From the NCBI RefSeq assembly GCF_000149955.1, contig NC_031000.1, forward strand, positions 1,038,259-1,102,258: a stretch of 64,000 nt of DNA. Direction: 5' to 3'. The stretch's first letter is position 1. Every line of letters starts with the position of its first letter. This document shows positions 21,250-49,230 of the stretch, one piece after another. Under the pieces are notes generated by a model. The model saw only the letters and a list, made by a program, of their open reading frames with translations. It had not been told where the DNA came from and ran no database searches. Position numbers and translations under genes: made by a program. This DNA comes from Fusarium oxysporum f. sp. lycopersici 4287. Its lineage: Eukaryota > Ascomycota > Sordariomycetes > Hypocreales > Nectriaceae.

Positions 21250-21269
21250 TACTAGATAGTTTACGTGTA

Positions 21270-24256: not shown

Positions 24257-24420
24257 GAGCCAACCAACTATGGAAGCACAGATAGATAGAGTGTATTACG
24301 CCCGAGAGAACAAATCTCATAGGGCCAGTAGGTACGCTAAGACATTTACGATTCCTCCGCATCGATCCGGTCTAAGGAAGTATACCTGCACGGTTACCTA
24401 TACATACAAGGCAGTCAATT

Positions 24421-24690
24421 GGCGAAGTGCAAGGATTAGTGGTGACCAGTTAAGGAAGATATTGCAACTGCGTCTTCTATGTGCCGAGAAACCCGAGTCT
24501 AATGAGTAGATGGTCGGAAGTTTAATTTCGGGTACCATCGTATTAAAGCCATCACAGTCATTTCTTGTATGATTTCCGTCATTCATATAACAGTATACAA
24601 AAGGCCCCGGCGCACCCCAAGTTTCCAAAAAGAAAAAAAAAAAAAAGAAAAAGACTTCCTTACATCGACCTTCACCATCAAAACGACTTT
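24421..24690 (-). repeat. dispersed repeat B, copy 2
   Basis: The inverted partner of 14682-14940, including a long A-rich tract at 24637-24660. It ends about 65 bp upstream of the transporter start at 24755, so part of that gene's promoter is repeat-derived. Confidence 0.7.
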
Positions 24691-24754
24691 AACTAGATGA
24701 CCCTTTCCTTTCACTGCTCGAAGTGGCCACCAGTCTCTGAATTCACACAATAAC

Positions 24755-28300: not shown

Positions 28301-28360
28301 CGGAAGCTGGCACATTCCGATGGAAACTAACACATTCCGACGGAAGCTAGCACAATCCAA
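28301..28360. repeat. three tandem 20-bp repeats with CGGAA/TTCCG
   Basis: Three exact-length units are cggaagctggcacattccga, tggaaactaacacattccga and cggaagctagcacaatccaa, with a partial fourth (cggaa). Each unit starts with a GGAA word and the first two end TTCCGA. The array ends 160 bp before the aldehyde dehydrogenase start. Confidence 0.85.
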
Positions 28361-28520
28361 CGGAATAATGGGTCTGCACAGAGGCGTGAAATGGCGTCCC
28401 CAAAATTTCTAGTTATCGCTACTCATCCATCATATAGATACAAATATTCTACATAGATACGTCTCACATCAGATCCTAACCTCGCGTTTACCCTCTATAA
28501 TATTTTAGAACTTAGTTTCA

Positions 28521-30162
28521 ATGCTGACAACATCCACCAAACGGGCAGCTGCCCTTTCAAGCCACCATTCCCTATCGCTTTATAGACGATATGGAAGCAC
28601 AGCGACCCAGCCTACGATTCCGCTCATAATCAATGGCCAGCAGGTGCATGGTTCTGAATCTTCCCCCGTTATCAGCCCTTTGACTGGTAAAGAAGTATGG
28701 TCTTTCTCTTGTGCCAGCAAGCATCAGGTGCAGGAAGCTGTGCAAAATGCCCACGACACCTTCCGCGACTGGTCTCGAACCAAAGTTTCCTATCGACGCG
28801 ATATATTTCTCAAAGCCGCTGAGATAATGGAAAAAAGGCTTGATGAGCTCGGCGGATATATGCATCACGAGCTAGGCGCCAATAAATTTTACCAAGACTT
28901 CGTTCTTGGACTGACAATTGAAGGGTTGAAGGACACAGCTGGTAGGATAGCTGGGGCTGTGCAAGCGTTTGCACCGGAGTCAACCCATGAAGGTATGAAA
29001 GCTCTGGTGCAAAAAAAACCTTATGGAGTCGTTCTGGGAATTGCACCTTGGTAAGATAAATCTTAGGGAGTCATGCCGTGGCTTAGTAGCCCTGCTAATG
29101 TCTACCGTTACAAGGAATTCCCCTTTTCATCTTGGACTTCGATCTGTTCTTTTTGCCTTGGCTGCTGGAAACACTACTGTTCTGAAAGGCTCTGAGTTTA
29201 CGCCCCGTTGTTATTGGGCGATCGCCGATGTCTTGCGAGAGGCCGGCTTGCCAGACGGGTGCCTGAACTTGATATTTCATTCACCTACCGAGGCGGCTAG
29301 TACCATAAATACCCTGGTTTCGCACCCGCATGTTAAGAAGATTAATTTTACAGGCAGTACCAGGGTTGGGAGAATTATATCCTCTCTCGCAGGGAAACAT
29401 CTGAAGCCTGTTCTTATGGAACTTGGCGGAAAGGCGAGTGCGATTGTACTCAAAGACGCCGATCTGGACCAAGCTGCTCTTCACTGCGCCCGAGGAGCGT
29501 TCCTCAATGTATGTGACTCTGAACCCCCAAGTGTATGACTCAGAAGATTTTATTGACAAGGACTTATATAGGCTGGCCAAATCTGCATGTCCACGGAGCG
29601 TATCCTGGTTGACGAATCTATCTCATCTGAGTTTCAGGAACGTCTTGGTGAAGCAATTAGAAAGCTTTTCGGTGCCGCGGATGACACACCTGCCGTCGTG
29701 ACTGCAGCCTCAGCCACTCGTAACCGGGGCCTCATTCAAGACGCTATATCCAAAGGCGCACAACCACTGAAGATTTTTGAGGATAAGCATGCTTATGAGA
29801 CAGATACAAAAATGAGACCTGTGGTCCTTGGCAATATCAAAAAGGACATGGACCTATACGCAACAGAGTCGTTCGGCCCCAGTGTGTCTCTCTTCACTTT
29901 CAAGACAGAAAAGGAAGCCTTAGAATTAGCGAATGACACGGAATACGGCTTAGCGGCTGCCATTTTCTCGAAGGACTTGAGGGTGGCATTCCAGCTGGCC
30001 GATGGCTTGGAGTCAGGGGCCGTACGCATTAATTCTATGACGGTGCATGATGAATACTCTCTCCCCCATGGAGGTGTGAAGGATAGTGGATTTGGTCGTT
30101 TTAACGGTTACCAGGGATTGGACGAGTTTCTTTACTTCAAGTCGGTTACTTGGATGGATTGA
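28521..30162 (+). CDS. aldehyde dehydrogenase (NAD(P)+), salicylaldehyde/vanillin dehydrogenase-like
   Basis: Exons 28521-29050, 29115-29508 and 29572-30162 give 504 residues. The N-terminus MLTTSTKRAAALSSHH...LYRRYGS is basic and serine-rich and may be a mitochondrial presequence. The cofactor region includes GIAPWN and KINFTGSTRVGR. The general base lies in LMELGGKAS. The nucleophile cysteine is in GQICMST at the exon 2/3 junction, so splicing is needed to build the active site. ESFGPSVSLF and GGVKDSGFGRF are late family motifs. The closest type is the aromatic-aldehyde branch, so it probably oxidises an aromatic or semialdehyde intermediate. All catalytic residues are present. Confidence 0.9.
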
Positions 30163-30797
30163 TATTTTTAGAGTTCAGGGTCTTAATGTTCCAGAGTGTC
30201 GCTGTTAGTGTCCTGTGTTATTATCCTGCGTATTACGATTTGTGTCTGTAACAGCGGACCTTCCGAGCAGATGCTCTAGTTCTCGACCATATGCCTTTTA
30301 AGCGGTCCAAATCACCCGAAATCAAGTGGCTGGAGTATATGCGATGAATGGAGCGGCATATAGACCGTGATAATCTTATTACCCTTGCAATATCTCCTAG
30401 ACTCGGCGGAGTGGTGGCTTTCGTGGCCATTGAGGATCAGGAAATGATAGCGACTATTTAATTATTTAGCTGCAGATCAATCAAAGTGCTTCAGCCACTC
30501 TAGGCCCAGCTGGTTATATATCTAGCTATTTTGGCTCATTGTGATAGCCTAATGGCTAGCAAGGTTGCATTCTCGGTGCCAGTTAGCAAGATGATATTAG
30601 CTTGTGCCAATAATGAATGGTGTAATGGATTGACTTTCCGCAGTAATGGCCCGGATTATTGTAATCCATTCCCGATTTCTAAGCAGCACTGATTTTAATC
30701 TTCCTTGCCTTTCTGAACCTATGATGACCATTCCGACCATAATAATAACCATTATATAACCAGTCTCATCAAAGTTTCAGTATTATCTAATCGGATA

Positions 30798-32640
30798 ACG
30801 TACATGATAAGCGAGCGTCGCAGACAAGCGAGCGTCGCACTTTTCCCACCTACATCTTACTTTTCATTTAACCAATTGATTCTCAAGCATAAACTATGCC
30901 ACAGTCTGATATTGAGGCAAATACTCTTCTTGCCCTTCAAGCCCTTCAAAATAACCCAAAACTAAGCACCCGACGAGCTGCAAATATCTATCAGGTTAAT
31001 GAGCATAGGCTACGTCGCCGCCAGCAAGGGATTCAACTTCGACGCGATACCATGCCTAACTCACGAAAGCTATCAAATCTAGAAGAAGATACTCTTCTTG
31101 AGTTCATCATCGACCTAAACTCACGAGGATATCCCCCGCGATTGAGTGGTGTTGAACAAATGGCCAATCGACTGCTTGATGCCCGCGACGCGCCACGCGT
31201 CGGCACGCGCTGGGCTATGAACTTCGTCAAGCGACAACCATTGCTCAAGATACGTTTTCAGCGGAGATATGACTATAAGAGGGCCAAATGTGAAGATCCG
31301 ACCGTTATTCGTAATTGGTTTAAGCTGGTACAGAACACAATTGCGAAATATGGTATCCAATCAGATGATATCTGGAACTTTGACGAGACTGGCTTTATGA
31401 TGGGCGTTATCTCAAGCGGTATGGTTGTTACATGTGCTGAAAGGCATGGACGACCTAAATCAGTACAGCCTGGAAACCGGGAATGGGTTACAGTAATCCA
31501 GGCGATTAATGCGGCAGGCTGGGCGATCGAGCCGTTTATCGTGGTTGCGGGCCAAAATCATCTTACCAACTGGTATCAAGAATGCAACCTCCCGCGCGAT
31601 TGGGCTATTATAACGACCCAAAATGGCTGGACGGATAACGACACGGGCCTCAAGTGGCTAAAGCACTTTGACCGATGTACAACTAACCGATTAGGTGGTA
31701 CCCATCGTCTTCTAATCCTCGACGGCCACGAAAGTCACCACTCCGTTGACTTCGAGCTATATTGCCAGGAGAAGAAGATTATCACGCTCTGTATGCCGCC
31801 TCATTCATCTCATCTACTTCAGCCACTTGATGTTGGGTGCTTTGGGCCGCTTAAAAAGGCCTATGGTCGAGAAATCGAGCAATTTATCAGAAAGTCTGTA
31901 ACCTATATCTCCAAGACTGAGTTCTTTCTGGCCTTTCACGTCGCATTCCAAGCCACTATGACAGGGAGTAACATCAAAGGGGGTTTTAGAGGAGCCGGGC
32001 TTGTTCCTATTAACCCCGAAAGTGTGATTTCAAAGCTTGATGTGCAGCTACGGACTTCAACACCTGTTGACGAGGAGGCTAGCGCATCCACCTCGTGGGT
32101 TTCAAAGACACCAAAGACAGTCCGCGAGGTGGAATCTCAGTCTGAATACCTCGAAAGACGAATTAGACGGCATAAGAGTAGCTCCCCAGAGTCAATTATA
32201 GGAGCATCAAAGTCTCTTGCAAAGGCAGCAACTAAAATATATCATAAAGTTACCTTATTGACTGCTGAGAACCAAGAACTTCGACGGCAAATTGAGGCAC
32301 TAAGCCGACGCCGCAGGGCAAAAAGAACCCGATTACAGAAAGGAGGGGTACTGACAGTAGGGGAAGGTCAGGAACTAATTGATCAGATGGATGTTGATAC
32401 GCAGGTAGTGGCCGAATCGTCGAGAAGCGGTGGTCGGGGAAGTTCGGCGTGACCGAGGGAAAGGCGCTGTGGAAGATGCGGCAAGACTGGACATAACGCA
32501 AGGACCTGTCAGGTAGTGATTGAGGCATCTGGGGAAGAGTATAGGAAGTAATTTTAATTGATTGAATAGTTTGTTATATTTTTATATTGGTTTCTATCTA
32601 GAATGTTAAGAAAAGTGCGACGCTCGCTTATCATGTACGT
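30798..32640 (+). mobile_element. pogo/Fot1-type DNA transposon C, near intact
   Basis: A 1843-bp element with TA duplications at 30796-30797 and 32641-32642 and both tips ACGTACATGATAAG. The left end has two 17-bp repeats with core CGAGCGTCGCA; the right end has one. It is nested inside an older copy in opposite orientation. Confidence 0.93.
30896..32551 (+). pseudogene. pogo-type transposase, stop just before the zinc knuckle
   Basis: An open frame of 518 residues starts MPQSDIEANTLLALQALQ and includes the HTH, the CENP-B domain and a complete DDE_1 core, with aspartates in NFDETGF, LILDGHESH and LLQPLDVGCF. A TGA (32450-32452) follows GRGSSA where element B has an arginine; beyond it the same frame reads CGRCGKTGHNARTC and ends at 32551. 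This is the best-preserved catalytic domain in the window. If the knuckle is dispensable the protein could still be active. Confidence 0.9.
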
Positions 32641-33522
32641 TACCATGTTTCATAATAACATCTTCTATAAGCCTAAACCACGCATAAACAATAATGAAAT
32701 CTTTATATTTAACTCTCTGGTAGTTATGTTTCTAATATAAATGGGTTTTTAGCCCTAGTTATTGCTTTACGAGGTTATAATCCTAGCGATTGTCGATAGG
32801 TGACGCATTGCAGTCAGCCCCCAGGGGATTAGCTATTTCTTCCGCAAAAAGCAGTTGCGAAGGAGAACCCTCGTGAAGCTAGGTCAAGAGCAGATTGAGC
32901 TATAGTATATTCTTCTAGATTAGATAGTCCTCATGACTTTTGGAAAGTATTACGTCGCGATTGAGTGCCATGTTAGCGACGTAAGGCTAAGCGGTCAACT
33001 TTGCAGGTACTTGCGGCACCTTGAAAACTTGTTTTTGGGTTATTTTCAAGCGCTTGGAGTGCAAGATGCATTCTGGTCTCATTTGAAGAGTGTGACGTGC
33101 TACGTGTTGGGTCGTTGAGAAGGACCCGGTATCTGATTGAATAAAAATGTTGGAGAATGAGAGACTTTTGGAGCACTTGCTTATCGCACACATTATGTCG
33201 CAATGTTATCAATATAAAGAAATAAATAAGGCTCAGGGAGCCCGTGCTAGGCTCGTGAGCTAGTCCGAGCACACGTGATTGGGAATTACAGTGATTCTTA
33301 TTCATGCTTAACAGAACATCGCTTCTAATTCCCGAACACAGTTAGACTTCTGATGTAGCAAAGTAAGTCGAGCCAACGGGCGTTTGTATCAGCTATATGA
33401 ACGGTTTGAACTAGGTAAGACAGTTGATGCCGATATCCTCAGCATTGGAGTGCAATAAGTATTGTTATATTCTTGTCCTCCATCATGGCCTCTCATCCGT
33501 TTGCCGCCAAGTAACCTATTAC

Positions 33523-34380
33523 CTAGGCAGTGCCTGTCTGAATAGCTGGAACCACTGGGTAGTTCGGGACTGTATGGTCGGCTCCACCCTTTGCCAGAGA
33601 AAGGGGGAGCCATATGGTCAAAAGGATACTGGCACGATCAAACTCTACTAACGCTGTAAGCTTCGTTGCCAACACCCGGTCAAAACCAGATTTCTGCTTG
33701 ACTTGAACCAGATAGTCGTTGAGAGAAACCCCTTCAGCAGGTTTGCGATATGCCAGCTGGACGGCGATCATCTTATCCTCAGGTTGATGCAGCAACCAAA
33801 CAGCAACTGCCCCCTGGGCTTCTGCAATAGATTTGATTTGAGGATAAACCTCATGCAGATAAGCCTCGATATTATTGGAGGTATAAGACCAGCGCTTGAA
33901 GTGTCCAATAGCATGATGCTCGATAGGGGCGAAATTATAAGCACCAATGACTTTCCAAGCAAAGCGCACAGGTGAATCAAACGCCGACTGGCTCCAGAAC
34001 TTTGTTCCTTCCTCATTAATTGTATACTCATTGGTCGTCCAATGGCTATAGTCGACAGCTTCTTCCCACTTGTCGAATAGATAGGCTCCGCCGGTGAGGA
34101 GCTTACCGGTGACTTCATCAAAACGGGTGGGAAGATATTTGAGCTGCATTCCAGGGCGCTCCATCATCTCCAAGCTCTGCGGGTACTGGGAGTTGATGAT
34201 GTCCGACAGAGACAAGCCGGCCTTGGCGAACGTGATTTCGGAGCTGAAGGCTCCTTTAGCCTTGATTTCGCCAACATTATAGCCGGTGACAGCCTTTGAG
34301 GGAATTTGAGAAGCAGCTATCTATAGTTAGCTTGTTTGTGATCGAGGGACACCTTGCTATTCAAACGCACCCATTGTCAT
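33523..34380 (-). CDS. unknown conserved-looking protein in the metabolic block
   Basis: A 10-base first exon (34380-34371, ATGACAATGG), a 54-bp intron with a gctaac branch site, and exon 2 (34316-33523) give 267 residues. The start was chosen because the longer open frame without it lacks an ATG and the splice restores a clean N-terminus (MTMAASQIPSKAV). Two halves each look like a short beta-alpha-beta unit: one around LTGGAYLFDKWEEAVDYSHW, the other around AEAQGAVAVWLLHQPEDKM. A dimeric alpha/beta-barrel (ABM/EthD-like) fold is therefore possible but unproven. No signal peptide. It is divergent from amidohydrolase 2, sharing a 486-bp intergenic region. Confidence 0.75.
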
Positions 34381-34565
34381 AATGAACTTGCAGCAAGTAA
34401 ATATTATTGGGAAAGTAGGTAGATAGTTTTGGATTTATAAGGATAATGTTGAGTTGAGGTGAGATTAAGAGGTATATGTCGGGCTATGGGATACTATCTA
34501 TATATCAGTCTGAGCAGCTATGTAGCTCCTAAGATACCAACTATAAAATCAAGAGCAAGAGGTCG

Positions 34566-34660
34566 ATTTGTCAGAGCAATGTAGCATATCTCCTAATTTC
34601 CCTCGTAATACGGCATCACATTTGTGCCGAATGTCTAATTTGTTAATAATCGGGCCCGGA
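34566..34660 (+). repeat. dispersed repeat D, copy 1
   Basis: About 90 bp matching 45825-45925 in inverted orientation, including cggcatcacatttgtgccga. It lies in the promoter region between the two divergent genes. Confidence 0.6.
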
Positions 34661-34714
34661 TCGGTGGGATTTTGGTTCAACACGTTAGAAGAAACCCGAG
34701 TGGAGCATGAAGCA

Positions 34715-34766
34715 ATTCCGAACCCGGATTCCGAACCCGGATTCCGAAGCTGGATTCCGGAACCGG
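34715..34766. repeat. four tandem 13-bp repeats (attccgaacccgg type)
   Basis: Units at 34715-34727, 34728-34740, 34741-34753 and 34754-34766 read attccgaacccgg twice, attccgaagctgg and attccggaaccgg. The array ends 100 bp before the start codon of amidohydrolase 2. The TTCCG word is the one enriched upstream of other metabolic genes here. Confidence 0.85.
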
Positions 34767-34866
34767 CATGAACAAATGTCAGCCTACCTTGTTTCATATA
34801 GTGAGGGGCCCATTCCCCGTAGCTCATCTCACTCACGCAACCTTTCGTGCGTTTATTGATCCAAGC

Positions 34867-36286
34867 ATGGCAGAGACGAGCGATTATCAGTCATCGATAA
34901 GCACCTTCATTGTCGAAGATGTCAAAATCTTTGACGGTCATAAGTTTATTGCCAATGGCTTTGTCTATGTTCGTGACGGACATATCGCCGATGTTGGCAG
35001 CGGCAAGCCAGACAGAATTATCGGACAACATACCTTGAGGATCTCTCGACCACAACATACGCTCATCCCGGGACTGATTGACGCCCATATCCATGCCCTT
35101 GCTGGTAACACCAACAGTGTTGAACAGTCGCTTCGCTTTGGAGTCACAACCGTATGCGACATGCATAACGAAGTGGAAGATATCATGCGGCTGAAACAGG
35201 TTTGTTTGTCCTTTGACTGGCACAGCGGATGATGTGAAAGACTAAATATGAATGCAGTGGGTCGCCGAGCCGCAAAACAAGGCCAGGTACTCGGATTATA
35301 AGTACGCTGGAATCGGAGCGGTTGTCGAAGGAGGATGGCCTATCCCCGTCATGAAGAAGGAACTGGAGTCAGTTCCTCAGGGCGAGAAAGTTCTAGACGC
35401 CATCGTCTCGGCCTGGCCCAAAATAAATACAGGTCATGATGCAAAACCATTTGTCCAACAGCAGGTCAATCAGCATGGCGCATCATATATCAAGATGTTT
35501 CACGAACTGGGAGACACTCTCGGCATGAAACTACCGTCACCTTCTATAGATGTGCAAAACGCTATAGTAAAAGCCGCTCATGACGCGGGAGTCATTGCTG
35601 TTGGTCATGCCCTCAGCTATAGTGGCGCCATGGATCTCCTCGAGGCTGGAGTCGACGGCTTCACGCATATTTTCCTAGACGAACCTCCCAATGACCACTT
35701 CATCAAGATTATGAAGTCGCGCAATGTTCACTGCAACCCAACGCTGAGCTTATGTGCATCGCAAACCGCCGAGCGACAGGAATGGCAGCAAACATTCAGA
35801 AGAGACCCCTTTGCTCGGAGTATGCTGATTGAGAAAACATTCGAGAAGCCACTTGGACTAGCCAAGGCAGAGCGCCCAAGAGCCGGTGTACAGCACGCGT
35901 ATGAAACCACGCGAAAGCTGTACCAGGCAGGTATCCCTTTGATAGCAGGCAGTGACTGTGCTGGTCAAGGGTTCGGTGTAGCATATGGTCTTGGCGTACA
36001 TATTGAGATGTACCTTTTTGCCCATGAGATCGGCATGTCGCCCGAAGATGTCCTCAAATCTGCTACGTCTACTACAGCTGCTCGGTTTGGGTTCGAGGAT
36101 AGAGGAGAGATTTCGGTTGGAAAGAAGGCAGATTTGGCGCTTGTCGAGGGTGACATTGCTGATGTACTATCTGATCCAAAGAACCGCTGTTTGCCAATCG
36201 TGGGTGTTTGGAGAGATGGTGTTCTGGCGTCTATTTATGAGCGGGGTTATCCTGAATTTGTGCAAATATTTGATACGGATATCTGA
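34867..36286 (+). CDS. amidohydrolase (imidazolonepropionase/prolidase-like), paralogue 2
   Basis: Exons 34867-35199 and 35258-36286 give 453 residues. Metal ligands and barrel motifs are all present: HxH in GLIDAHIHA, the lysine in YIKMFHELG, VGHAL, FTHIF and the aspartate in AGSDCAGQ. The end GEISVGKKADLALVEGD matches paralogue 1. An in-frame ATG at 34768 would add 33 residues, but the shorter start aligns with the paralogue. The predicted reaction is hydrolysis of an amide-like bond with one or two divalent metals, substrate unknown. It is divergent from the unknown gene at 33523-34380 and convergent with the decarboxylase gene. Confidence 0.9.
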
Positions 36287-37197
36287 TACGAGTATTCCCC
36301 TACGCCAAGGCTTCATTTTGTGAAAGAATTCAATAAATAGTGATTTGTTTCGTCTGCTGATGGACCAATACAGCATTGTGTTGATATTTTCACGACATTA
36401 CATGCACCTACAGTCAATGGAAGGGACTGCAATCAGCGACCATTGGGTGATGGCACTTGCTATAGCTTCACATGTAAAGCTAGGCACAAATTAAAGAGCC
36501 CTTGAGTAACATCATGGATCACAAATATAACCCAATAGCCATACCACTATTTGGTATTCACAATATCATATATAGTCCACTACAATTTTCCATATATCCA
36601 GCCCACCGACGACGCAAATGCATATGACTCTAAAAAGTCTTGAAGTTAATATTGGAAACTGTGGTTATTGTAAGAAAATTGTTTTACATTGAAGTATGTG
36701 TTTGTGCATCCATTTCAGCAGGATTTGAGTCATCGTCAATCGCCATTCAAACATGTCACGGCCTCATAACTGGTCGAATAACGTTCCTTAACGCGTGACA
36801 CTAATACTGCCGGTTTGCAATTCTGCATGATGCTTCACACAGCGTTGTGCTTCTGTAAAATTTGCGACATCGGCGCGTTCGTCGGAACTTGAGGCGATGA
36901 CCAAAAGGCGGCTTAATAAAGCGAAGATACGCATTATTCTTCCCGTCCTCCCCCGATTTTCCTAAGTCATTGAGCCTCAACAAGAGTAGTCCGGAGCTAC
37001 AGTTACAATAACTGCTGTGTTGCATTCAGACGTTCAGGGTTTCCTATCACGCATATTCAAGAACGCTCTATGGTTTTAGATGTATCTAAGACTGAAGATT
37101 TCGGGACCATCGAAATCGAGGCATGACTTGTTATGCAATAAAATAGTAAATCCGAGAGGAGCAAAGAAACCATCTGCCAAATATATGTTCTAATCTA
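36287..37197. other. intergenic between convergent genes
   Basis: About 900 bp holding the 3' ends of amidohydrolase 2 and the decarboxylase gene. No gene, repeat or RNA recognised. Confidence 0.5.
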
Positions 37198-38847
37198 CTA
37201 AACTGCATCAAAGCCCATTTCCATCCACCTCCCTTCAATCTTCTCCTGAAGCTCTGGCGGATACGAAGATCGAAAATCCACAGATCTAAAAATTCTTCCT
37301 CTATCGTATTCCATAACTAAAAGGCAGTTAGATACCATTTTGCCTCCCTTAACAGAACTTCCGCGACCGTATTTCCGATATGGAGTAAGTGGAAGACCCA
37401 TCACCTCGTCAAACACATATTCGTCAATACCTGGTCGGCAACGGGACGTGTACGCCCATATGACATCTGCCCAGTCATGTATGTCCACGTCGTCCCCGAT
37501 CAATAAGATGCGATTAATTAGCATGGTTGCCTTAGAATTGAAGGCTATGTTGCCTATAGTTGTGCAGAGTTCATCAGGGTTCGTCTTCATCTCGGCAAGC
37601 TTCTTACTGTCAACCTGTAGTATGCACCAAGTTGCAAGGGTCTCCAGGGGGGCGACTGCGTCTTTGATTGGAAGATCATGTTGTTGCAACGTCTCCAGTA
37701 ACTGGACTGACGCCATGGAAGCCGTTGTGTGCTAGAATAATATAGTCAGTATGCAGCCCTAGAGAAGAACTTGGCTTTGCAAACTTACCGATTCGTCTGT
37801 CAGCCGGCCGGGCACAGAAACGGGCAGAATGGCACCATCGCGATAGGTGATAGCATCCACGGTGAAGAGGGGCTGATTGCCAGCTTCACCCTCAAAGTGC
37901 ATACCAATGTAATCCTCAAATGGGCCTTCAAGAGCCTTGTCCTTGAGAGAAAATGTGCCTTCAAGGATGATCTCGCTATTTGCGGGTACGAGAAGATCAC
38001 TCAATTCGCATTTCACCATGTCAAGTGGCTTTCCAGCGAGTGAGCTCACGTAATCTCTCTCCGAAACACCAGGGGGTATAGGAATCGATGCAGCAATGGT
38101 TGCTGCTGGTGGAGCGCCAAGAGATAAAGCCCAGGGGACCTCATCTTTTCCAAGTTTCAGCCACTGATCCCTGATCATAGAGTTGTGTTGTCCTGGAATG
38201 ACGAGACATGACAAACGTCTCTTGTCATGGACCATGCCTCGAAAGACAGACCAGTTCGTCCATGATTTATCTGGTGTCTCTAAGATATGTACTCCCCAGG
38301 TTTGAAGATATTTGCCGCCATCACCTTGATGCAGCAGCGGAACTGGTAAATTCGTGAGATCTATGTCATCGCCAAAGATTTTATTTTGCTTGCATAGGCC
38401 CGTCGAAAGAATATTTGGAGGTAAGGGGTCTCGAGTTGTAGCAAGGCGCATCTTTTCGAGGATATCCTTCCAATTTGAGTCAGGGGGAAGACCGAGGCTA
38501 CGTGCAATTCGACCGTATCGGAACTTGCTGTCATTTCGAAGGCTGGCAGCGTTTCCAAACATCTTCCACAGGCCATTTCGAGTGCCTTTAACGTTGTGGA
38601 AAAGCGGCGCCTTAGCGTTGGTTTCACTAACTCTTCTCACAACCGCCCCAACTTCGAGATTGGGGTCAACTTCCTGATAAATATCGGCAAGATCTCCATC
38701 TTTGCGAAGGACCTCCACAAAGCTGCGGAAGTCAAGTTGCGGGTCGCCTTGATTCGAGTTTAGTGATGCTTTGCTAGAATAAAGGCGAACCCTGATTGAT
38801 GTAGGTTTTAAAGATGACAGAATCTGATGGTGGGTTAATCGGAACAT
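37198..38847 (-). CDS. UbiD-family prFMN-dependent decarboxylase (Fdc1-type)
   Basis: Exon 1 is 38847-37789, the intron 37788-37732 and exon 2 37731-37198, giving 530 residues (yeast Fdc1 has about 500). The N-terminus MFRLTHHQILSSL...RVRLYSS looks like a mitochondrial presequence, as in yeast. LDFRSFVEVLRKDGDLADI is the family start. LPVPLLHQGDGGKYLQTWG and WTNWSVFRGM fall in the cofactor-binding core. EGPFEDYIGMHFEG is the region of the catalytic glutamates. It removes CO2 from an unsaturated or aromatic acid using prenylated FMN. Divergent from a Pad1/UbiX gene, which supports the call. Whether the substrate is a cinnamate or a hydroxybenzoate type cannot be decided. Confidence 0.9.
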
Positions 38848-39224
38848 GGTTGTGACAAATTATGGGAGAATACAGTTACACTATCGCTAAAACCATTGGG
38901 TATCTTTAAGGCCAGAATCGAACTTAGGGCTCTTTCTTAACAACAGAGGCCTAGTTCACGCATTACGGACCTTGAGGCATAGTTCCGGCGGACCGGAACG
39001 GAAAGCAGGAATAGATTACAAGGCATTGCGGGACTCCGGAAACAGAACAGATGGCCACTCCGGGCGGGAAGGATGCTATGTTTCCGTAGAGTTGAAGGGA
39101 TTGGAATAAAAGGTGTGTTTTCTTTTTGGAATAGTATTACCCGGATAAAGGTTGGTAGTCGAAAGTATATGGAGAGCACTAGATTTTCCTCATTGCCTAA
39201 CCCCTACACGACATTTTATTTACC
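38848..39224. promoter_or_regulatory. bidirectional promoter of the decarboxylase and prenyltransferase genes
   Basis: A 377-bp divergent intergenic region. It contains the palindrome GTTCCGG-N4-CCGGAAC at 38982-38999, with further CGG/CCG words next to it (cggaacgg, actccggaaac, ctccgggcggg up to 39070). Zn2Cys6 factors bind CGG/CCG pairs, so this is the most likely operator for the regulator encoded at 40099-42564. Confidence 0.6.
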
Positions 39225-39998
39225 ATGAAAGAAGTCTCTTCCGCCACACGCCAACTTCTTGGAGTGTCTTCAAAAAGGTTCACGTTCTACCACCCTACTC
39301 ACTTCATACAAAGACCTTATGTCAGGTTGTTCTCCACAAGCCAATCGTACTTGAGCTGGAGTGGAGCACAAGACCAGGTTCAAGAGAATGCCCTCCCATC
39401 TTTGGAATCAACAAGGCCGAGGAGGATCGTTGTCGGAATTACAGGTGCAACAGGTGCCCCGTACGCCATCCGCATCTTAACTCTTCTTCACCACCTAGGT
39501 GTGGAGACTCATCTTATCATTAGCAAATGGGCATTAGCCACACTCAAATACGAAACATCCATGAGCGAAGCTGATATTCGAGGCCTTGCGAGTAGATCAT
39601 ACACGGCAAAAGATCTCTCAGCACCAATCGCTTCAGGATCCTTTCAGCATGACGGAATGATGATTGTTCCCTGTAGCATGAAAACTCTTGCTGCAGTACG
39701 ATCTGGTTACTGCGATGACCTAATATCAAGAGCCGCCGATGTCACACTCAAGGAAGATCGCAAACTACTCCTAGCTATTCGGGAAACACCTTTGAGTTCT
39801 ATTCATCTTGAGAATATGCTTGCTCTTCGTCGTGCTAACGCCATCATCTTCCCTCCTGTTCCGGCTTTCTATACCAGGCCTGGGGGTATCGACGATATTG
39901 TCGATCAAAGTGCTGGAAGGATGTTGGATATGATAGGAATATTCACTGATGGGTTTGAGCGATGGGAGGGGTTCAAGAAAGCTCAGACTGAGATGTAG
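39225..39998 (+). CDS. PAD1: flavin prenyltransferase (Pad1/UbiX family)
   Basis: An intronless 257-residue protein. The first 60 residues are basic and serine-rich (MKEVSSATRQLLGVSSKRF...RLFSTSQS), a likely mitochondrial presequence. RIVVGITGATGAPYAIRIL is the FMN-binding P-loop-like start of the family. Then come the serine/threonine-rich GMMIVPCSMKTLAAVRSG block, SRAADVTLKEDRKLLLAIRETPLS and the C-terminal PPVPAFYTRP. It makes prenylated FMN from FMN and a dimethylallyl phosphate, the cofactor of UbiD enzymes. Head-to-head with the UbiD-type gene, as in other ascomycete PAD1/FDC1 pairs. Confidence 0.92.
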   Translation: MKEVSSATRQLLGVSSKRFTFYHPTHFIQRPYVRLFSTSQSYLSWSGAQDQVQENALPSLESTRPRRIVVGITGATGAPYAIRILTLLHHLGVETHLIISKWALATLKYETSMSEADIRGLASRSYTAKDLSAPIASGSFQHDGMMIVPCSMKTLAAVRSGYCDDLISRAADVTLKEDRKLLLAIRETPLSSIHLENMLALRRANAIIFPPVPAFYTRPGGIDDIVDQSAGRMLDMIGIFTDGFERWEGFKKAQTEM

Positions 39999-40098
39999 CC
40001 GGGATATGAGCAAGATGTCGGCTGAAATATTTCATAAGCTGATATGAGCTTCAAGCATCCCGAAATCAAATCATATTACTTTCATTTATAAGCTTTAC

Positions 40099-42564
40099 TT
40101 ATTGAAAAAGAAAACTGTGTGAATTAGCAGGCCACCCTCTTAATACCCATGGCGGAGTATCTTGCGGACCATGATCACCTTCCATCGGCAACTCGAAGCC
40201 GAAGTTCGCGCCGAAGGAGTTCATTTCGGCCTCGAAAGTACGATCTGTCATAGGGACAAAGGCCTCTTCTCGAGGCTCATTGTTAAGACCAATGTCTTGT
40301 GATGTCGCAGAGGGACCTGTAAATGTGGTGCTGCTTTGGAATGCAACGATTGTAGACGGAATCGCTTCCTCAGAGGCTTCTCTCTGTGCTTTACCATACG
40401 TTTCCATAGCGTGGCAAAGTTCTCGAATCCTTTTCCCTAAATCTTTTGCGGCCGTGGACACATCTCCGTACTTCTGTGATAGATTGCGTGCTCGTACAAA
40501 GCATTCACGGATTTGGTCGTCATATCCTGGGGTCAAATACGGTAACATGGTTGAGCGATGCTTCTCAATGTAGCCCACCACTAGAAACATCAGAGCACAA
40601 ATGGACGCGAGGATGTGCTGGTAGTACGGTCGCTGGTTACGGTACATGTCCGTGACATTGTCCACTTTGAATAGTGACCCTGTGACCCTGACTGCTAATT
40701 CCATGGCCTGTGGAAGGTATAGTTTGCTCTTCTCGATATCCGACGTTGGAAAGAAATAAGGACGTAGCAGAAGGCTCTTTATCGACGCAGCTCGGTAGAT
40801 CAGCAATAAGAGCCATGACGGAGGTAAGTTTGATGGTTCATCAAACCAAACCTCCATGTCAGAAAGGTCTTTGTCCCCGACGCACTTTTTCTGCCACTGT
40901 TGAATCTGGAAAACCAATAGTTCCATCACATCATCATCGATACGAGTATTTCCCCTGGCCGCGATGGATATAGGTTCGTCAAATCTGTCGCTGATGTGAA
41001 TGAGCATGTACATAGCCTTTGCATATGGCATATCGTCCTATAGCATTCCAAGTTAGCGGATAAGCTCAGTGTATTTCATTGATGTTTCTAGGGATGTTGC
41101 GAAAAGCAAAACTAGGTGACTCACTATGAATGTAGGCGTGAGACTGAACGCGGCGTTGGGGAAGTTTGCGGGCAAGCCAGTCATAGCGCTCCATTGACGA
41201 TCGAGTATAATTACGGAGCACATGATAGCAGAAGCCTCTCTACGTTGAGAATCGGTCTTGAGAATGTGATTCAACATGTCGCTATTGTGGAAGCCAAGTT
41301 CCATCAACATACGTCCAGCAATGCCACATAACCTTAATGCAAGCCTTGAGAGGTCGTGGGAGAAATAATAGTAGCCCTTGATCAGATATGTTAGCATGCT
41401 CTGATAGGGAATTAGCTGACTGGGTTTGTTTACCAGTAGTAAGGCGATGGTGACTTGTTTGATACTAGTTGTAGAAGATGTAATTGCGGCATTGGCTGAG
41501 GGCATAAAGTTAGAATGAAGGACGGATGCCATCGTTGCAAGTAAAGTGTCTTTTGAGACTTGTGCTACTACAGCCAGCATAAGTACCAAGATGATCAGGT
41601 CATCATCGTCAGGTTGGTTGCTCTCTCCACCCAAAGATTGGTTCGTATCACTGGAATAGCATGATTCCAGTTGCCTTCTAACTCTGTCAATGTTGACAAA
41701 TGGGTGCAGTTCTCCTATGACTCTGTGATATGTATCTGCAGCATCTTTGGCTTCCTGTAGCGATAACCATGACCGGAATTGCAATAGCTGATAGCGGTCA
41801 AAATGACGCCTGGACGGCCAATGTGGTATGGGCGGCAATACAGCATCGTTACCATTTACACTTGGTAGCATGGGTTGGTGCGATGATGATGCGAGATAAC
41901 CCAGTTGTCGCAAAGTGATTTGTACCAGGTTCATGCTGTAGTCTGGACTTGTAGGACCATAAAAGTAATGACTAGCATAGCTTGGAGTGGTATCTGTTTG
42001 AGTGGCATGCGGCCGTCTGTTTGACAAACTTGTGTGGTCACCAGGTGCATGCAATGTGTGGGGTGAAGCAACTGAACCTAGGCTGTGGGTCCCATTACTT
42101 TGCGCTTCAACCATGGCCTTGACTTGTTGCAACTCGGTGCGAAGACTTGCAACAAGACTTGTAAGGTCACTGTCATTGCCGCTTCCGCATCCATTACTAG
42201 GTACATCTGGTGCCCCTGAACTATTTGGTAGAATGGCTGGAGACGGCGGACCATTGGCTGCGGCTGGTGTCAGCGGCGGCGAAAGGCTTCGATTAGACTC
42301 GTCGCTTTGGAACGCTGATGGTTGTGCCGGAGCTCTAGTAACGCTCGCTGTAGCTGTAACTGTTTCTATACCTGGAGAAACAGTTTCTTCATCGTAGAGG
42401 CATGTCCGACCCCGGTTTTCGCAGTAGTCGCATGGCTGCCGGCCGTCGCATTTGCCTTTCCGTCGTCGGCAAGCGATACATGCACGAGCAGCATACGGAG
42501 CTCGTCGTTTGCTGGTAACAGTGGGTAACGAGTTCCCTGTTCTTTTAGTGGCGCGTGAAATCAT
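40099..42564 (-). CDS. Zn(II)2Cys6 transcription factor, probable cluster regulator
   Basis: Exon 1 is 42564-41125, the intron 41124-41038 and exon 2 41037-40099, giving about 792 residues. The zinc cluster is near residues 28-55: CIACRRRKGKC then CDYCENRGRTC. A serine/proline/threonine-rich linker follows, then a coiled-coil-like stretch (DLTSLVASLRTELQQVKAMV). The fungal-specific regulatory domain comes next (PF04082 type; GIAGRMLMELGFHNSD, DRQWSAMTGLP). It lies tail-to-tail with PAD1, about 100 bp apart, and divergent from the carboxylesterase. The position suggests control of the decarboxylase pair and the esterase. Expected nuclear, binding CGG triplets. Confidence 0.88.
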
Positions 42565-42960
42565 TCTGTTGCTTGGTAGGGAATGGTCAAAAGTAGAAAC
42601 AGGGAAGGCGGAAAGGGAAGACGGAAAGAGAAGACGGAAAGGAAATGACTGAAAGGGAGTAGAATATGAGACTGTTCCAAAGTTTTAAATTAGTTCCGGT
42701 AAAATCGCTATTCCGAAAACCGGAACTTAAACTAGCGCTAACAAAGAAGTATGTAAAGCTAATAACGCCGGCGAATGCGGCATTAGCTGCGGCATAATTA
42801 ACCCCGCATAAGCCGATGTCTGGAAGACCGCCCCGCTGCCAAATCTGCCAAGTATTTAACCACGATCAATTGGTGAACCGCCAGATAGAAATTCCTGTCA
42901 ACATATCGCTAGTACGACACTTTCCTTACATTTGGCGTGTTCTCTCTATCTCTCTGAATT
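42565..42960. promoter_or_regulatory. divergent promoter of the regulator and the carboxylesterase
   Basis: A 396-bp region. The regulator-proximal half (42595-42735) is repeat C, with GTTCCGG/CCGGAAC words. The esterase-proximal half has a CGG/CCG cluster including CGG-N11-CCG at 42790-42806, the spacing class used by several Zn2Cys6 dimers. Confidence 0.55.
42595..42735. repeat. dispersed repeat C, copy 2
   Basis: Closely matches 24130-24256, including gttccaaagttttaaatt and gaaaaccggaacttaaacta. Here it stands without a transposase, in a promoter, so it could be a solo hAT end or a hAT-derived MITE. Confidence 0.55.
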
Positions 42961-44778
42961 ATGTTTAATTTTGCCTGTTTTATAGCATGGCTGCTCCTGG
43001 TCTTTGCAGTTGACGCCAAGTCGCCGTCAACTTCCTCGTTAGGACCCCGAGGCCCTCCAACTGTGACCATCAAGAATGGCACCTTGAGTGGCATTTTTAA
43101 TAGCCACTACGACCAGGAGTTCTTTCTCGGTATACCCTATGCGGCGCCGCCTGTAAATGACCTCCGTCTGCGCAAACCCCAGCCTGCACAACCTTGGGCC
43201 GGCATTCGGAAGTCAGAGTCATATGGAGCGCGCTGCCTTAGAAACGATATTCGACTGGCTGGATTTAGTCAAAACGTCACAGACCCGGTCAGCGAAGATT
43301 GTCTCCACATCAACATTATACGGCCAGCAACCCAGCGTTCACCACTTCCCGTGCTCGTATGGATACATGGGGGGGCATTCCAGGAGGGCAGCGCCAGCGA
43401 CGGCAGGACCAATGGAACCTTTCTCGTGCAGACATCCGTGGAGATGGGAACACCAATCATTTTCGTCAGCTTCAATTATCGTCTCGGTGCTTTTGGCTTT
43501 CTGGGTGGCCTGGAAATAGAGGCGGCTGGCGTATCTAATATTGCCCTTTACGACCAACGGCAGGCTCTCCATTGGATTCAAGAAAACATCGGATATTTTG
43601 GCGGAGATGCATCACAGGTTACGATAATGGGCCAGTCAGCTGGTGCTATGTCAGTCGGATTTCATCTCCTCGCCTTCGGAGGCCGAAACGATGGTCTCTT
43701 CAATGCCGCAATCGCACAAAGTGGAGGTCCCTATACGGTACCCGTTCTCAGCCGTGAGATATCGGATCGAGAAGCCGATTTCAATATGGTACTGAACAAA
43801 ACTGGTTGTTCAGACTCTAAAGACTCACTGAATTGTCTACGCGCAGCTCCCGCTGAGTTATTGCAACAAGCTGGTTCTCTCTTGACACCTTCATTTGTTG
43901 TTGATGGCGGAATAATTACAGCACCTAGCGAAGAGCTCTTACACTCGGGCCGCTTTGCTAAAGTACCTTTACTCATTGGTTCGACGAGGAATGAGGGAAC
44001 ATCTCTACTGCAGCAAATATTGGGTACGACGGGCTCATTTGAGACTGAGGAGCACTTCAAATCGTTCATCAAGACTTCTTGGATAAGAGGCCCAATTAAT
44101 GATACAGTCGCCCAACATTGGGCGCAACTGTACGCTCAGGAAATCAATACTCCTTCGACAGCTGGTCTAGGTACTGTGAAGCCGAACCCCGGTCCAAAGT
44201 ACGGCAACTATTATGGCCAGGCAACGTTGTGGCTGGGTGACATGACATTCACTGCTGGAAGGCGTTTTGCAACCCAAGCATGGGCTAGAGAAAACGTGCC
44301 GAGCTATAGTTTCTTATTCGACGGTGTACCAGCAAACATGGATCCAGATACGCTTGGAGCTGCCCACTTTTCAGATGTGGCATATACGTTTAGGGACACG
44401 GAAGGCTTTGGCTGGGAGATAAACCCTTTCCCAGCCGAGCCTAACCTGAAGGAGAAACATGTCAAACTCGCCGAACTCATGAGCCGAATGTGGATCAGCT
44501 TTGCAACCAAGCGGAACCCGAACTTCCACAATGGTCAGTTACGTGTTACCTTATGGACCACCTTCAGACACCTCCTTTCCTTGAAACTAACTTATAATGT
44601 GTTTTTAGTATCCGATTTTCATACGACTTGGCCAACATATACTAATAAACGCCTCGTTAATATGGTTTTTGAGACTACTCAAAGCCATTTACAGGCTGAT
44701 GACTGGCGAGCCGAAGCAATCAGCATGATGTCTCTTGTGCCGGGTACTCATCCAACGAGAGGTAATAACAATTGTTAG
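42961..44778 (+). CDS. secreted type-B carboxylesterase/lipase
   Basis: The signal peptide MFNFACFIAWLLLVFAVDAK precedes an alpha/beta-hydrolase of the carboxylesterase-lipase family (PF00135). The oxyanion region is PVLVWIHGGAFQEGS. The nucleophile serine is in MGQSAGAMS, the acid is probably the glutamate in GSTRNEGTS and the histidine is in LGAAHFSDVAY. EDCLHINI is the family N-terminal signature. A 75-nt stretch (44534-44608) has GT, an actaac branch site and AG. It is a likely intron although its length keeps the frame open: removing it joins NPNFHN to SDFHTTWP cleanly. The product is about 580 residues when spliced. Secreted, so it could cleave an ester before uptake. Confidence 0.9.
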   Translation: MFNFACFIAWLLLVFAVDAKSPSTSSLGPRGPPTVTIKNGTLSGIFNSHYDQEFFLGIPYAAPPVNDLRLRKPQPAQPWAGIRKSESYGARCLRNDIRLAGFSQNVTDPVSEDCLHINIIRPATQRSPLPVLVWIHGGAFQEGSASDGRTNGTFLVQTSVEMGTPIIFVSFNYRLGAFGFLGGLEIEAAGVSNIALYDQRQALHWIQENIGYFGGDASQVTIMGQSAGAMSVGFHLLAFGGRNDGLFNAAIAQSGGPYTVPVLSREISDREADFNMVLNKTGCSDSKDSLNCLRAAPAELLQQAGSLLTPSFVVDGGIITAPSEELLHSGRFAKVPLLIGSTRNEGTSLLQQILGTTGSFETEEHFKSFIKTSWIRGPINDTVAQHWAQLYAQEINTPSTAGLGTVKPNPGPKYGNYYGQATLWLGDMTFTAGRRFATQAWARENVPSYSFLFDGVPANMDPDTLGAAHFSDVAYTFRDTEGFGWEINPFPAEPNLKEKHVKLAELMSRMWISFATKRNPNFHNGQLRVTLWTTFRHLLSLKLTYNVFLVSDFHTTWPTYTNKRLVNMVFETTQSHLQADDWRAEAISMMSLVPGTHPTRGNNNC

Positions 44779-44859
44779 GGCTGTTATTGCGTTAACTACA
44801 TATTAAAATAGAAATCTAAAGTAGACTAACTTACCCTTTATGTGTCATCTTAATTAATT

Positions 44860-45415
44860 AATATCTAATAAAGTACACTATCAGCAGGTTAATCAAAAAT
44901 CTCTCACTCTCTCCCCTCTCTTTCGCCACACATGTCGCAACCACCAAGCATGTCACAGATAAATCAAGAGGCAAATATCATTCTTGTTCTTCAAGTCCTT
45001 TGAAAAGACCCAGTTTTGGGTCTTCGTTGTGCCGCAAGGACCTACAGGACGCCGTACAGTTCGCTCTGGCGCCGATACCGCGGCATCCCTGCTCGGTGCG
45101 ATGTCACTCCGGAATTACGTAGATTATCCGATCTAGAAGAACAGAGTATTGTTCAATTCAATCTAGACCTTGGCTCGCGAGGTTTCCCCCTTGAGACTGC
45201 GTGATGTAGAAGAAATAGCTTACTGAGTGCTGGCCGGTCGCGATGCGTCACCTGTTGGCAAGTGCTAGACACGTGGATTCATTAATTACCACTCAGAACT
45301 TAGAACGCACTTTAATTGTAGATACGACTATCGGAGAGCTAAACGTAAAGGTCTGACCATTATCTGCAATTAGTTCTTACTTATAGAGAATATAATTGCA
45401 AAGTATGGTATTAGC
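44860..45415 (+). mobile_element. decayed pogo element, 5' third
   Basis: After a degraded left tip, the leader aaaaatctctcactct and start MSQINQEANIILVLQVL match the pogo family. The frame then breaks by stops and shifts but can be followed through a RKLSDLEEQ-like and an RYDYQRAK-like block to about 45415, where it ends abruptly. Confidence 0.75.
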
Positions 45416-46828: not shown

Positions 46829-47294
46829 ATGTCTTCTGGTCATTGTCTTTGTGGTGGAGTCAAAGTCGAGGTCTCGGGTGACCCTGTCGCCGTTGTATGA
46901 ACTTTCCTAACCCTCACTTTCCTTTTGCCGTTACTAATGTATAAGCAAGGTCTTGTGCCATTGTTTGGATTGCCGCAAAACATCTGGTAGCACTCATGGC
47001 CTCAATTGGGTTGTCCCTGGTGATCTGGTTCAACTTGAGGGACCGTCGAAGACGTTCACAAAGCTGAGCAAGGCTGGCAACCCTGTTACGAATACATTCT
47101 GCCCTACCTGCGGTACTACAGTGTTTCGTGATGGCCCTGCTGCTCCTGGTATCAAATTTGTCAAGGCGGGTATCTTTGATGATCCCGAGCTCTTGGCTAC
47201 CATCAAGCCTCAAGGAGAGATCTTCGTGTCTCGACGCCCGGTCTGGATGTCCCCCATTGAAGGTGCTTCTCAGAAGAAGGAAATGATGGAGTGA
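46829..47294 (+). CDS. GFA-domain (CENP-V/GFA) zinc protein
   Basis: Exons 46829-46894 and 46950-47294 give 136 residues. Zinc ligands are visible as CLCGG near residue 6, CHCLDCRK near residue 25 and FCPTCGTTVF near residue 70, the pattern of the glutathione-dependent formaldehyde-activating-like (PF04828) fold. Many fungal members have no known reaction; some handle glutathione or S-conjugates. The short intron (55 nt) falls between the first and second cysteine clusters. Same strand as the Zn2Cys6 gene 380 bp downstream. Confidence 0.85.
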
Positions 47295-47675
47295 AATGCA
47301 AGGTGGAATGCGCTCACCCCTTCTGTCTTCGCCCCGCCCATACATTTTGCGTTGAAATGCAGGATATAAGTTGAGATACTGGGATACCGGGAGGCGCGCC
47401 GGGTTTGTGCAGTTGTGTATATTGTAGTCAACGGTGTTGGACAATCACGGCTTAGCGTGGCAATTATGGCACGGGGTATTACCAAAATAAAATGTGGAGA
47501 TTGGCACGGGATGATGAGTACGGTGGCGTTTCACTATGAGGCATAACTAATCCCGATCGGTATCCTAATGTCCGTTTCACAAATTGAGTTTACCAACATT
47601 TCGTTCGTATAAAGCCCCTCCCCGTTCGACCACCGCCTCTCAGGTTATGGTAATTCATGTATTCAAGCCTTGAGC

Positions 47676-49230
47676 ATGGTTAATCTCGGACGACCAGCAA
47701 TGGGCTGTTTCAGCTGCAAAGACAGCCGTGTCAAGGTGAGGCGGCGCTTCATGCGATAGCGACACATAATCTCTCACACCACGTATGCAGTGCGATCTCG
47801 AAAAACCATCATGTGGGCGATGTAAGCGTCTCACTCATGTATGCCCTGGTTATCCGGATACCTGGAGCTTGATACACAGACAACAAAACGAGCAGGTTTC
47901 TCGCAAGGTACAATTGAGAGTGAATCGTCAGCAACGCCTGAGACAAAACAACACAGATACACCGCCCTTGACGGCATCGGCCATTCACGCCTCGCCCGTC
48001 TCAGTTTCCAGGGATATTGATCAGAACGTCCAAATTTACGCCGTTCATCGGATGTACTATGATTTGTGCTTCGACGCCAGCGTGGGCGTGTTCGTAGCCC
48101 TTCCCTTCATAGCTGTCAATACTTCTGTATCGCCTTTCATGCATGCTCTCCAAGCCGCAGCTCTAGCCCACTCGTCTGCAAATCTTAACCAATATGGACT
48201 TCTACCCAAATTGGAATATTGCGCCGCAGTTTCTGCATTGAAGAGAGATATCGCCGAGCCGGCTCAATTACAGAATGACGCCATCTTGATGTCCATTTTC
48301 CTTCTAGGCCTCTTCGAAGTCAGTTCTCTGACCCTCATCGTTCTCAATGTTCATTTATATGCTAACTAACGAAGGTCATCGTTCAACAACGGTCGGAAAG
48401 AAAGGTAGAGACAGATGGGTTAAAATGCCACCCACACGCTACAGGTGCACTCGCGCTTATTCGATACCGAACTCGGCAAAAACTAGACAGCTCTATAGAC
48501 ATAAGTGTCTTCCAATTCTATAGGCATGTTCGTGTAAGTCAATCTTTCCATGATATTGCAAAGTCTCCAACTCTAGCTGACGTTGATATCTTTCGTCTTT
48601 TGCCTGGTGCAGCTACTCGATATTTTCCTCCTAGGTACCGACCCGAGCTCACTGAAGACCGACTTTGTAAGCCCTTGGACCAATTGGGCCCAATTTCGTA
48701 CAATCGAGCCGCTTATACAAGATTGTGTCGAGCTGACCGGAAAAGTTCGCATTTTGACATCTACACTTTGCTCAAACCTCTCTTCAGCAAATATGGCTAC
48801 ACTTATCGACGAAATCATTCAGACAATTGCAAACCTTGGGCATGCCGCATCCCTTGTCGCCCAATGTCCGCGTTCTGCTACCCACCCCGGGTACTTCAAT
48901 GGATTACTAAGTCCAGATAATGAGACGAGCGTTGCAATAGCTAAGAGTCTGTACCTGACGATGCGCTTGCACATGACCGAAATGCTTTTATCTCTGCTAG
49001 AAGATGTCGGGGCCCCAGTGGAAAATGTGTTGAAAGCGACCGTAGTGGACGAGCTTTGCGAGATTATACGCAAGGTTATTGATGGCAACTTGAAGTGTGC
49101 GCAAGGGGGACCTGGTATGGCTGCTAGATTATTGCTTATGTCATGGCCCATGCTTGCCGTTCTCCAATCCCGTCTTCCCAGCTTGGAAACAAGGTCTTGG
49201 GTTCAGAGTTTACTCGATAGGAGAAGATAA
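47676..49230 (+). CDS. Zn(II)2Cys6 transcription factor 2
   Basis: Exons 47676-47735, 47791-48318, 48375-48533 and 48613-49230 give 454 residues. The zinc cluster CFSCKDSRVK then CDLEKPSCGRC..C has perfect CX2CX6CX6CX2CX6C spacing and is split by the first intron. The remainder resembles the DUF3468/Fungal_trans_2 type: QIYAVHRMYYDLCFD, ALQAAALAHSS and FLLGLFE. The start was chosen because MVNLGRPAMGC is the common N-terminus of this class. All junctions keep phase. Target genes unknown; the adjacent GFA gene is a candidate. Confidence 0.85.

Follow-up and report, generated by a model that had tools for sequence, protein, structure and literature searches.

A prFMN decarboxylase gene cluster with shared promoter arrays on duplicated DNA of Fusarium oxysporum f. 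sp. lycopersici 4287

The usual view of fungal Fdc enzymes is that they decarboxylate cinnamic, sorbic or ferulic acid. An Fdc1-type gene on contig C15 of Fusarium oxysporum f. sp. lycopersici 4287 raises the question of whether it belongs to a dedicated catabolic cluster, which neighbors belong with it, and whether its enzyme acts on those same acids. The window analyzed here is a stretch of 64,000 nucleotides (C15:1038259-1102258) of the 61.2-Mb assembly, in which C1, C5, C7, C12, C13 and C15 are contigs; coordinates without a contig name are those of the window. An earlier model reading of the letters alone (the original prediction) had proposed a compact, possibly undescribed block of six genes at 33523-44778, built around a decarboxylase dependent on prenylated flavin mononucleotide (prFMN). 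Open models of all six genes, built by hand from sequence alone with GT-AG introns, show that each gene is present and intact. They are uninterrupted reading frames with at most one such intron per gene, arranged as three divergent pairs (A/B, C/D and E/F). The genes of the block and three linked genes are as follows.

34380-33523, minus strand: gene A, barrel protein, 267 amino acids; exons 34380-34371 and 34316-33523
34867-36286, plus strand: gene B, amidohydrolase of the PF01979 type, 453 amino acids; exons 34867-35199 and 35258-36286
38847-37198, minus strand: gene C, Fdc1/UbiD-type decarboxylase (FDC) with a variant pocket, 530 amino acids; exons 38847-37789 and 37731-37198
39225-39998, plus strand: gene D, Pad1/UbiX flavin prenyltransferase (PAD), 257 amino acids; no intron
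42564-40099, minus strand: gene E, Zn2Cys6 regulator, 792 amino acids; exons 42564-41125 and 41037-40099
42961-44778, plus strand: gene F, carboxylesterase, 580 amino acids; an in-frame intron of 75 nucleotides is assumed at 44534-44608
28521-30162, plus strand: linked aldehyde dehydrogenase of the aromatic-aldehyde type, 504 amino acids, intact; exons 28521-29050, 29115-29508 and 29572-30162
24755-26188, plus strand: linked MFS transporter
13624-12214, minus strand: second amidohydrolase, B', sharing 64% identity with B across 343 amino acids and lying outside the C1/C15 duplication described below

The cluster is real, intact and probably co-regulated; its type is known, with a variant enzyme and additional genes here. 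Its extent is likely about nine genes. The six genes of the block stand as proposed, while its sensible limits are wider, with the same promoter element at the aldehyde dehydrogenase, MFS and B' genes. The original prediction as a whole is therefore borne out in part. We hold with moderate confidence that this is a dedicated, co-regulated cluster handling an unsaturated or aromatic acid derived from plants or soil, located on repeat-rich, duplicated and probably accessory DNA.

The decarboxylase and its partners

Pfam assigns C to UbiD (206 bits), with UbiD_N and UbiD_C also above the cut-off. The protein has the three-domain UbiD architecture and the catalytic motif R-Xn-E-X4-(E/D), kept as R173, E277 and D282. 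Articles are cited here by PubMed Central number, and that motif is given in PMC5818171. D is a Pad1/UbiX flavin prenyltransferase, matching Flavoprotein (PF02441) at 144.5 bits and, closely, the solved Pad1 structure 6qlg (E 7.5e-75). E matches Zn_clus (33 bits), its relative P0001 also carries PF04082, and F matches COesterase (330 bits). By eye, the translation of F contains a GQSAGA serine motif and a hydrophobic, signal-like N-terminus. On these families, a prFMN decarboxylase accompanied by its own prenyltransferase, a regulator and a probably secreted esterase was rightly recognized.

The proposal that B belongs to amidohydrolase 2 (PF04909) does not hold: B matches Amidohydro_1 (PF01979, 76.5 bits over 65-433) and PF07969, and PF04909 is not among its Pfam matches. 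Its sequence relatives in the PDB are the amide hydrolase LlADH and the arginine carboxypeptidase Cc2672; its one close relative in the genome is B', and other matches are distant. Gene A, listed originally as an unknown protein, is indeed without a Pfam match above the cut-off, but a predicted fold can now be assigned to it. The structure model of P0081, which is 99% identical to A, is a tandem ferredoxin-like alpha+beta barrel (predicted local distance difference test score 87.7) resembling small monooxygenases and anthrone oxidase (3mcs, 9kdp (PenE) and 5f9p); the assignment is one of fold, and many unrelated functions share the tandem ferredoxin-like fold. One other relative of A occurs in the genome, at C13 (41%). 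The best PDB matches of the linked aldehyde dehydrogenase are vanillin and salicylaldehyde dehydrogenases.

Alignment of C with Fdc1 of Aspergillus niger retains R173, E277, I187 and Q190, with changes at seven positions: E282D, M283Y, T323S, I327 missing, Y394M, T395L and F437L. The FDC encoded at C5 has the same D, Y, S, gap, M and L, with H at 437, and its intron position is identical. The gap at 327 adjoins the intron in C, and a wrong splice site could create such a gap in one gene; a splicing error is disfavored because the C5 enzyme has the same gap. The C12 paralog, in contrast, has the A. niger residue at each of the seven positions (282, 283, 323, 327, 394, 395 and 437) and scores 824 bits against A. 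niger Fdc1, compared with 568 for C. By these residues C is not CdcA proper. At C12:852060-857022, PAD, the canonical FDC and a Zn2Cys6 gene lie side by side, and this is likely the true cdcA-type locus of the genome.

Judging from the pocket comparison, activity with an altered substrate preference is expected of C, because A. niger Fdc1 carrying E282D is still active, though slower (apparent kcat 0.63 versus 9.4 per s; PMC5818171), site-saturation of M283 and I327 yields activity on benzoic-type acids (cited in PMC8888657), and HudA has a Tyr directly after the catalytic acid (PMC7976604). In HudA/PA0254, a pyrrole-2-carboxylic acid decarboxylase, the residues are E278-Y279, whereas C has D-Y at A. 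niger positions 282-283; HudA is also more distant from C (422 bits, versus 570 for the best Fdc1 entry), and no counterpart of a Trp or Asn is shown in C. Because the pocket is altered, plain cinnamic or sorbic acid would be a less likely substrate for C than for the C12 enzyme.

Promoter arrays

Co-regulation is suggested by arrays of the pentamer CGGAA/TTCCG in the promoters between the divergent genes and in that of the aldehyde dehydrogenase.

34716-34762: A/B promoter, five CGGAA/TTCCG sites, mostly at 13-bp spacing, within a repeat shared with the window at about 18400
38983-39041: C/D promoter, CGGAA/TTCCG sites including TTCCGGCGGACCGGAA
42609-42725: E/F promoter, six CGGAA/TTCCG sites, three of them at a 13-bp period, and also TTCCGG-N20-CCGGAA
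28146-28365: aldehyde dehydrogenase promoter, eight CGGAA/TTCCG sites, including TTCCGaCGGAA

When the density of sites is scanned per 200-bp stretch and at least five sites are taken as a peak, seven peaks are found in the window, and six of these are the promoters of B', MFS, the aldehyde dehydrogenase, A/B, C/D and E/F, which make up about 4% of its length. Six control stretches, each covering the 500 bp ahead of another reading frame in the window, have 0-2 sites. In the five promoters other than that of MFS, CGGAA ranks first of 512 pentamers (counts 7, 8, 5, 5 and 6; score 18.0, next 9.5); when only the three promoters of the block are counted, it comes second, behind the overlapping CCGGA, and is less striking. 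Among 4000 random noncoding triplets, 135 reach the CGGAA score with any word and 13 with a word occurring at least three times in each member. The clearest independent case for the element is that of the aldehyde dehydrogenase, with eight promoter sites where 1.02 are expected, in a gene chosen through its C5 relative before its promoter was read. An array common to the three divergent promoters lends sequence support to co-regulation. The layouts of the C/D and E/F arrays differ. In yeast, Asg1 is a putative CCGGAA binder.

The upstream region of the MFS gene includes a 121-bp copy of the E/F promoter at 85%. With no mismatch, GTTTTAAATTNGTTCCGG of the E/F promoter occurs only there, at MFS, in a relic at a locus elsewhere on C15, and in the C1 copies of these three. 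That relic (C15:992134-994340, which has a second copy on C1) consists of an E-type promoter and the first 44 codons of an E-type regulator (68%), and is divergent from an aldehyde dehydrogenase 78% like that of the window.

Relatives, known systems and genomic setting

Five UbiD loci occur in the genome, including the C15 and C1 copies, and at all five FDC and PAD are divergent neighbors. The locus most like the window is C5:4803266-4812345, where FDC, PAD and a Zn2Cys6 gene have the same order and orientation and are followed by an aldehyde dehydrogenase (identities of 59.6% for FDC, 76-77% for PAD, 31% for the regulator and 57-62% for the aldehyde dehydrogenase). When the genome was searched with the last exon of the aldehyde dehydrogenase in the window, 48 matches were scored, and the C5 gene is outranked only by the two copies of the query and the two of the 78% paralog. 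The C5 locus thus shares with the window the core gene order, the pocket changes and intron position of FDC, and a related aldehyde dehydrogenase. Unlike the window, it lacks A, B and F, its regulator is of another clade, and its FDC/PAD promoter is without a CGGAA array. The original prediction had named synteny beyond the PAD1/FDC1 pair as its test; this is half passed, with the regulator and the aldehyde dehydrogenase recurring at C5 and A, B and F missing there. At C12 and C7 a Zn2Cys6-like gene lies within a few kb of the FDC/PAD pair, the one at C7 scoring just below the Pfam cut-off.

E matches FOXG_15125 of the same strain at 98% and has at least 80 relatives in a protein search; relatives at 43-49% occur in Aspergillus and Penicillium, and none among the matches listed is labelled SdrA. 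In a quick tree of 64 relatives (rows of at least 630 amino acids, P0017 and P0072 left out, support by the Shimodaira-Hasegawa-like approximate likelihood ratio test), E falls in a clade of 16 members, in which some Fusarium sequences group with Aspergillus, Penicillium, Colletotrichum, Diaporthe and Beauveria, separate from the clade with the C5 regulator. Patchy descent of E, by transfer or by loss, is likely on this sequence tree, which does not tell the two apart. A 250-bp piece at C1:3274242-3274491, far from the duplicated segment, matches a part of E at 99% identity (window 40925-41174, with the intron).

The closest known system is that of A. niger, in which cinnamic and sorbic acid induce cdcA, sdrA, padA and the adjoining carboxylesterase NRRL3_8299, predicted to be extracellular (PMC6776626). 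As in the window, UbiD, UbiX, Zn2Cys6 and carboxylesterase genes are adjacent. The order differs: the A. niger regulator lies between cdcA and padA, whereas the window has FDC, PAD and then the regulator; gene order in this cluster also varies among Aspergilli (PMC6776626). The window adds an aldehyde dehydrogenase, amidohydrolases and the alpha+beta-barrel protein, and its FDC pocket differs. The other A. niger neighbors (flavin reductase, BTB, glucoamylase and sulphatase) were not seen in a Pfam scan of part of the window reading frames. The product of the A. niger decarboxylase is styrene or 1,3-pentadiene (PMC12388069, PMC9200314). The absence of a ring-cleavage gene, which had been taken to leave the end of the pathway open, is therefore no puzzle if C acts as in A. 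niger; a volatile alkene product could simply leave the cell.

Two other systems are comparable in part. The SORBUS cluster of Penicillium roqueforti, a region of 180 kb that was probably transferred, contains several padA and cdcA copies and sdrA among transposons (PMC9200314). Like the window, it combines decarboxylase/prenyltransferase pairs and a regulator with transposon-bearing DNA; its authors tie the region to sorbic acid resistance, and it has other accessory genes, nothing comparable being shown for the window. The benzoxazolinone-responsive cluster FVEG_03387-FVEG_03405 of F. verticillioides includes a weakly induced UbiD gene (FVEG_03405, log2 1.9) and an uninduced aldehyde dehydrogenase, and also lists transcription factors, a transporter and a secretory lipase (PMC10512309). 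By comparison of gene lists, unlike the window, the members listed in the excerpted text of that source include no UbiX/PAD, amidohydrolase or COesterase. The C5-type regulator of F. verticillioides is FVEG_05793, by its number outside that cluster. A literature search of titles and abstract openings, FOXG_15123 to FOXG_15127 included, found no account naming the present cluster among the papers listed, and the excerpts of PMC8877037, PMC6952191, PMC12388069 and PMC8044207 contain no such Fusarium cluster. A paper on transcription factor repertoires (PMC9934661) contains none of five terms looked for in it. The description as undescribed thus holds only in part, given the decarboxylase, regulator, prenyltransferase and carboxylesterase cluster of Aspergillus.

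Much of the window, the block included, belongs to an inverted segmental duplication.

17474-64000: inverted copy of C1:6578031-6624634, with an unmatched 515 bp at 31710-32224

Identity is 99.78% over 17474-31709 and 99.94% over 32225-64000, and the duplication is very recent (99.8-99.9%). The unmatched gap falls inside a Fot-type transposase gene. Within 33400-44900, the C15 and C1 copies have only two differences, base 36146 in B and a one-base gap at 42822 between E and F. The duplication probably extends beyond the window, and outer markers suggest an end at about C15:1221000. Fot-type transposases and a hAT remnant lie near the block. In strain 4287, chromosome 15 and an end of chromosome 1 are presumably lineage-specific, and the cluster region is probably a repeat-rich, duplicated, accessory part of the genome.

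Mechanism and alternative readings

In the favored reading, a secreted F and the amidohydrolases B and B' would free an acid (or aldehyde) from esters or amides, the MFS carrier would transport the compound in one direction or the other, and the aldehyde dehydrogenase would convert aldehyde to acid. D would supply prenyl-FMN to C, which could then take off CO2 through a 1,3-dipolar cycloaddition and leave an alkene or a decarboxylated ring. E may sense the compound and activate its own and the other promoters by binding to the arrays of CGGAA half-sites. The putative members of such a regulon are the two amidohydrolases, the secreted esterase, the aldehyde dehydrogenase, the transporter, the barrel-fold oxygenase, PAD, FDC and the regulator.

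Several observations weigh against this reading. The densest array in the window, the seventh peak (18377-18576), has no gene; it is apparently a relic, an inverted copy of the B promoter. The pentamer was tested only after a negative result for the hexamer CCGGAA, which had been spotted by eye and was the most enriched (7 in 1259 bp of block promoters), and whose score is reached by 472 of 1408 random triplets and is not significant. The B' promoter entered the pentamer set through the density scan itself, and Poisson values are too optimistic because local tandem repeats account for part of the arrays. Peaks of 6-7 sites also occur in three of 11 other 10-kb stretches of the genome; one is the stretch with the regulator relic, another, still unexplained, has seven sites at C15:982643-982842 upstream of a Mutator-like element (MULE) transposase gene, and the third is the stretch of the C5 regulator, which has five sites about 0.9 kb upstream (P 0.06). 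The array is not a general feature of FDC/PAD paralogs, whose promoters have one site at C5 and none at C7 or C12; the C5 aldehyde dehydrogenase has two sites in the 500 bp upstream. Nor is there a relative of A, B or F in the 20 kb around each FDC/PAD pair at C5, C7 and C12. Adjacency in other genomes was judged from the locus numbers of relatives of the E-type regulator and the esterase, with orthology presumed and cluster representatives among the matches listed. Among those matches, the two are adjacent in none of the four genomes tagged for both, which are listed here with the regulator before the esterase.

LCI18_003085 versus 009632/012337
FSARC_14048 (a fused gene model) versus 7239
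FOPG_17219 versus 18421
ACKAV7_014052 versus 000005

In A. bombycis the regulator and esterase relatives are on contigs of different length, as are the regulator and A relatives in Diaporthe sp. PMI_573; conservation of the outer genes elsewhere is unsupported. It may accordingly be that only the core (FDC, PAD, regulator and aldehyde dehydrogenase) is a unit, with A, B and F as bystanders and the arrays as products of repeats and promoter copying. C5 repeats the core alone, the A/B array lies inside a repeat, and both MFS and the 992-kb relic locus carry copies of the E/F promoter, as would fit this view together with the missing esterase-regulator adjacency. The differing layouts of the C/D and E/F arrays speak against it, as does the A. 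niger carboxylesterase, which adjoins padA and is co-induced (PMC6776626), and we consider it possible but somewhat unlikely. An alternative of another kind is that the locus is a second copy of the Aspergillus cluster, in which C yields styrene or 1,3-pentadiene from cinnamic or sorbic acid in detoxification; as a statement on the substrate it overlaps the other readings, and the probabilities do not sum to one. The kinds of genes are identical, four positions (R173, E277, I187 and Q190) are retained, and E282D Fdc1 still turns over cinnamic acid (PMC5818171). This is nevertheless unlikely, given seven altered substrate-pocket or acid/base positions that the C12 enzyme keeps, the fall in apparent kcat that E282D alone causes (PMC5818171) and a gene order unlike that of A. 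niger. Very improbable is decaying accessory DNA without current function: nearby transposase genes, relic promoters and a regulator fragment could be read in this way, but A-F and the aldehyde dehydrogenase have open frames and clean introns, and the database clusters formed at 90% identity comprise 47 sequences for F, 48 for A and 96 for E.

The favored reading of a dedicated, co-regulated cluster can be extended, tentatively and with the whole being rather unlikely, to one in which the window and C5 enzymes form a distinct fungal Fdc subfamily for a heteroaromatic or benzoic-type acid, within a regulon of about nine genes on an accessory chromosome that is directed against a plant defence ester or amide and whose CGGAA arrays spread partly by promoter copying. 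The C and C5 enzymes have a coherent pocket different from that of the usual fungal Fdc enzymes, and the pair, one member kept at C5 and the other in duplicated DNA that is probably accessory, offers a direct route to a wider known substrate range of fungal prFMN enzymes. The cluster would also allow a test of what accessory regions contribute besides effectors, and the promoter arrays could serve to test how a local regulator recruits new genes.

Beyond the block, at 46938-49230, where there is no CGGAA array and the Zn2Cys6-like frames have no Pfam match, a frame of the GFA family (PF04828) is followed by frames that by eye resemble a second Zn2Cys6 regulator.

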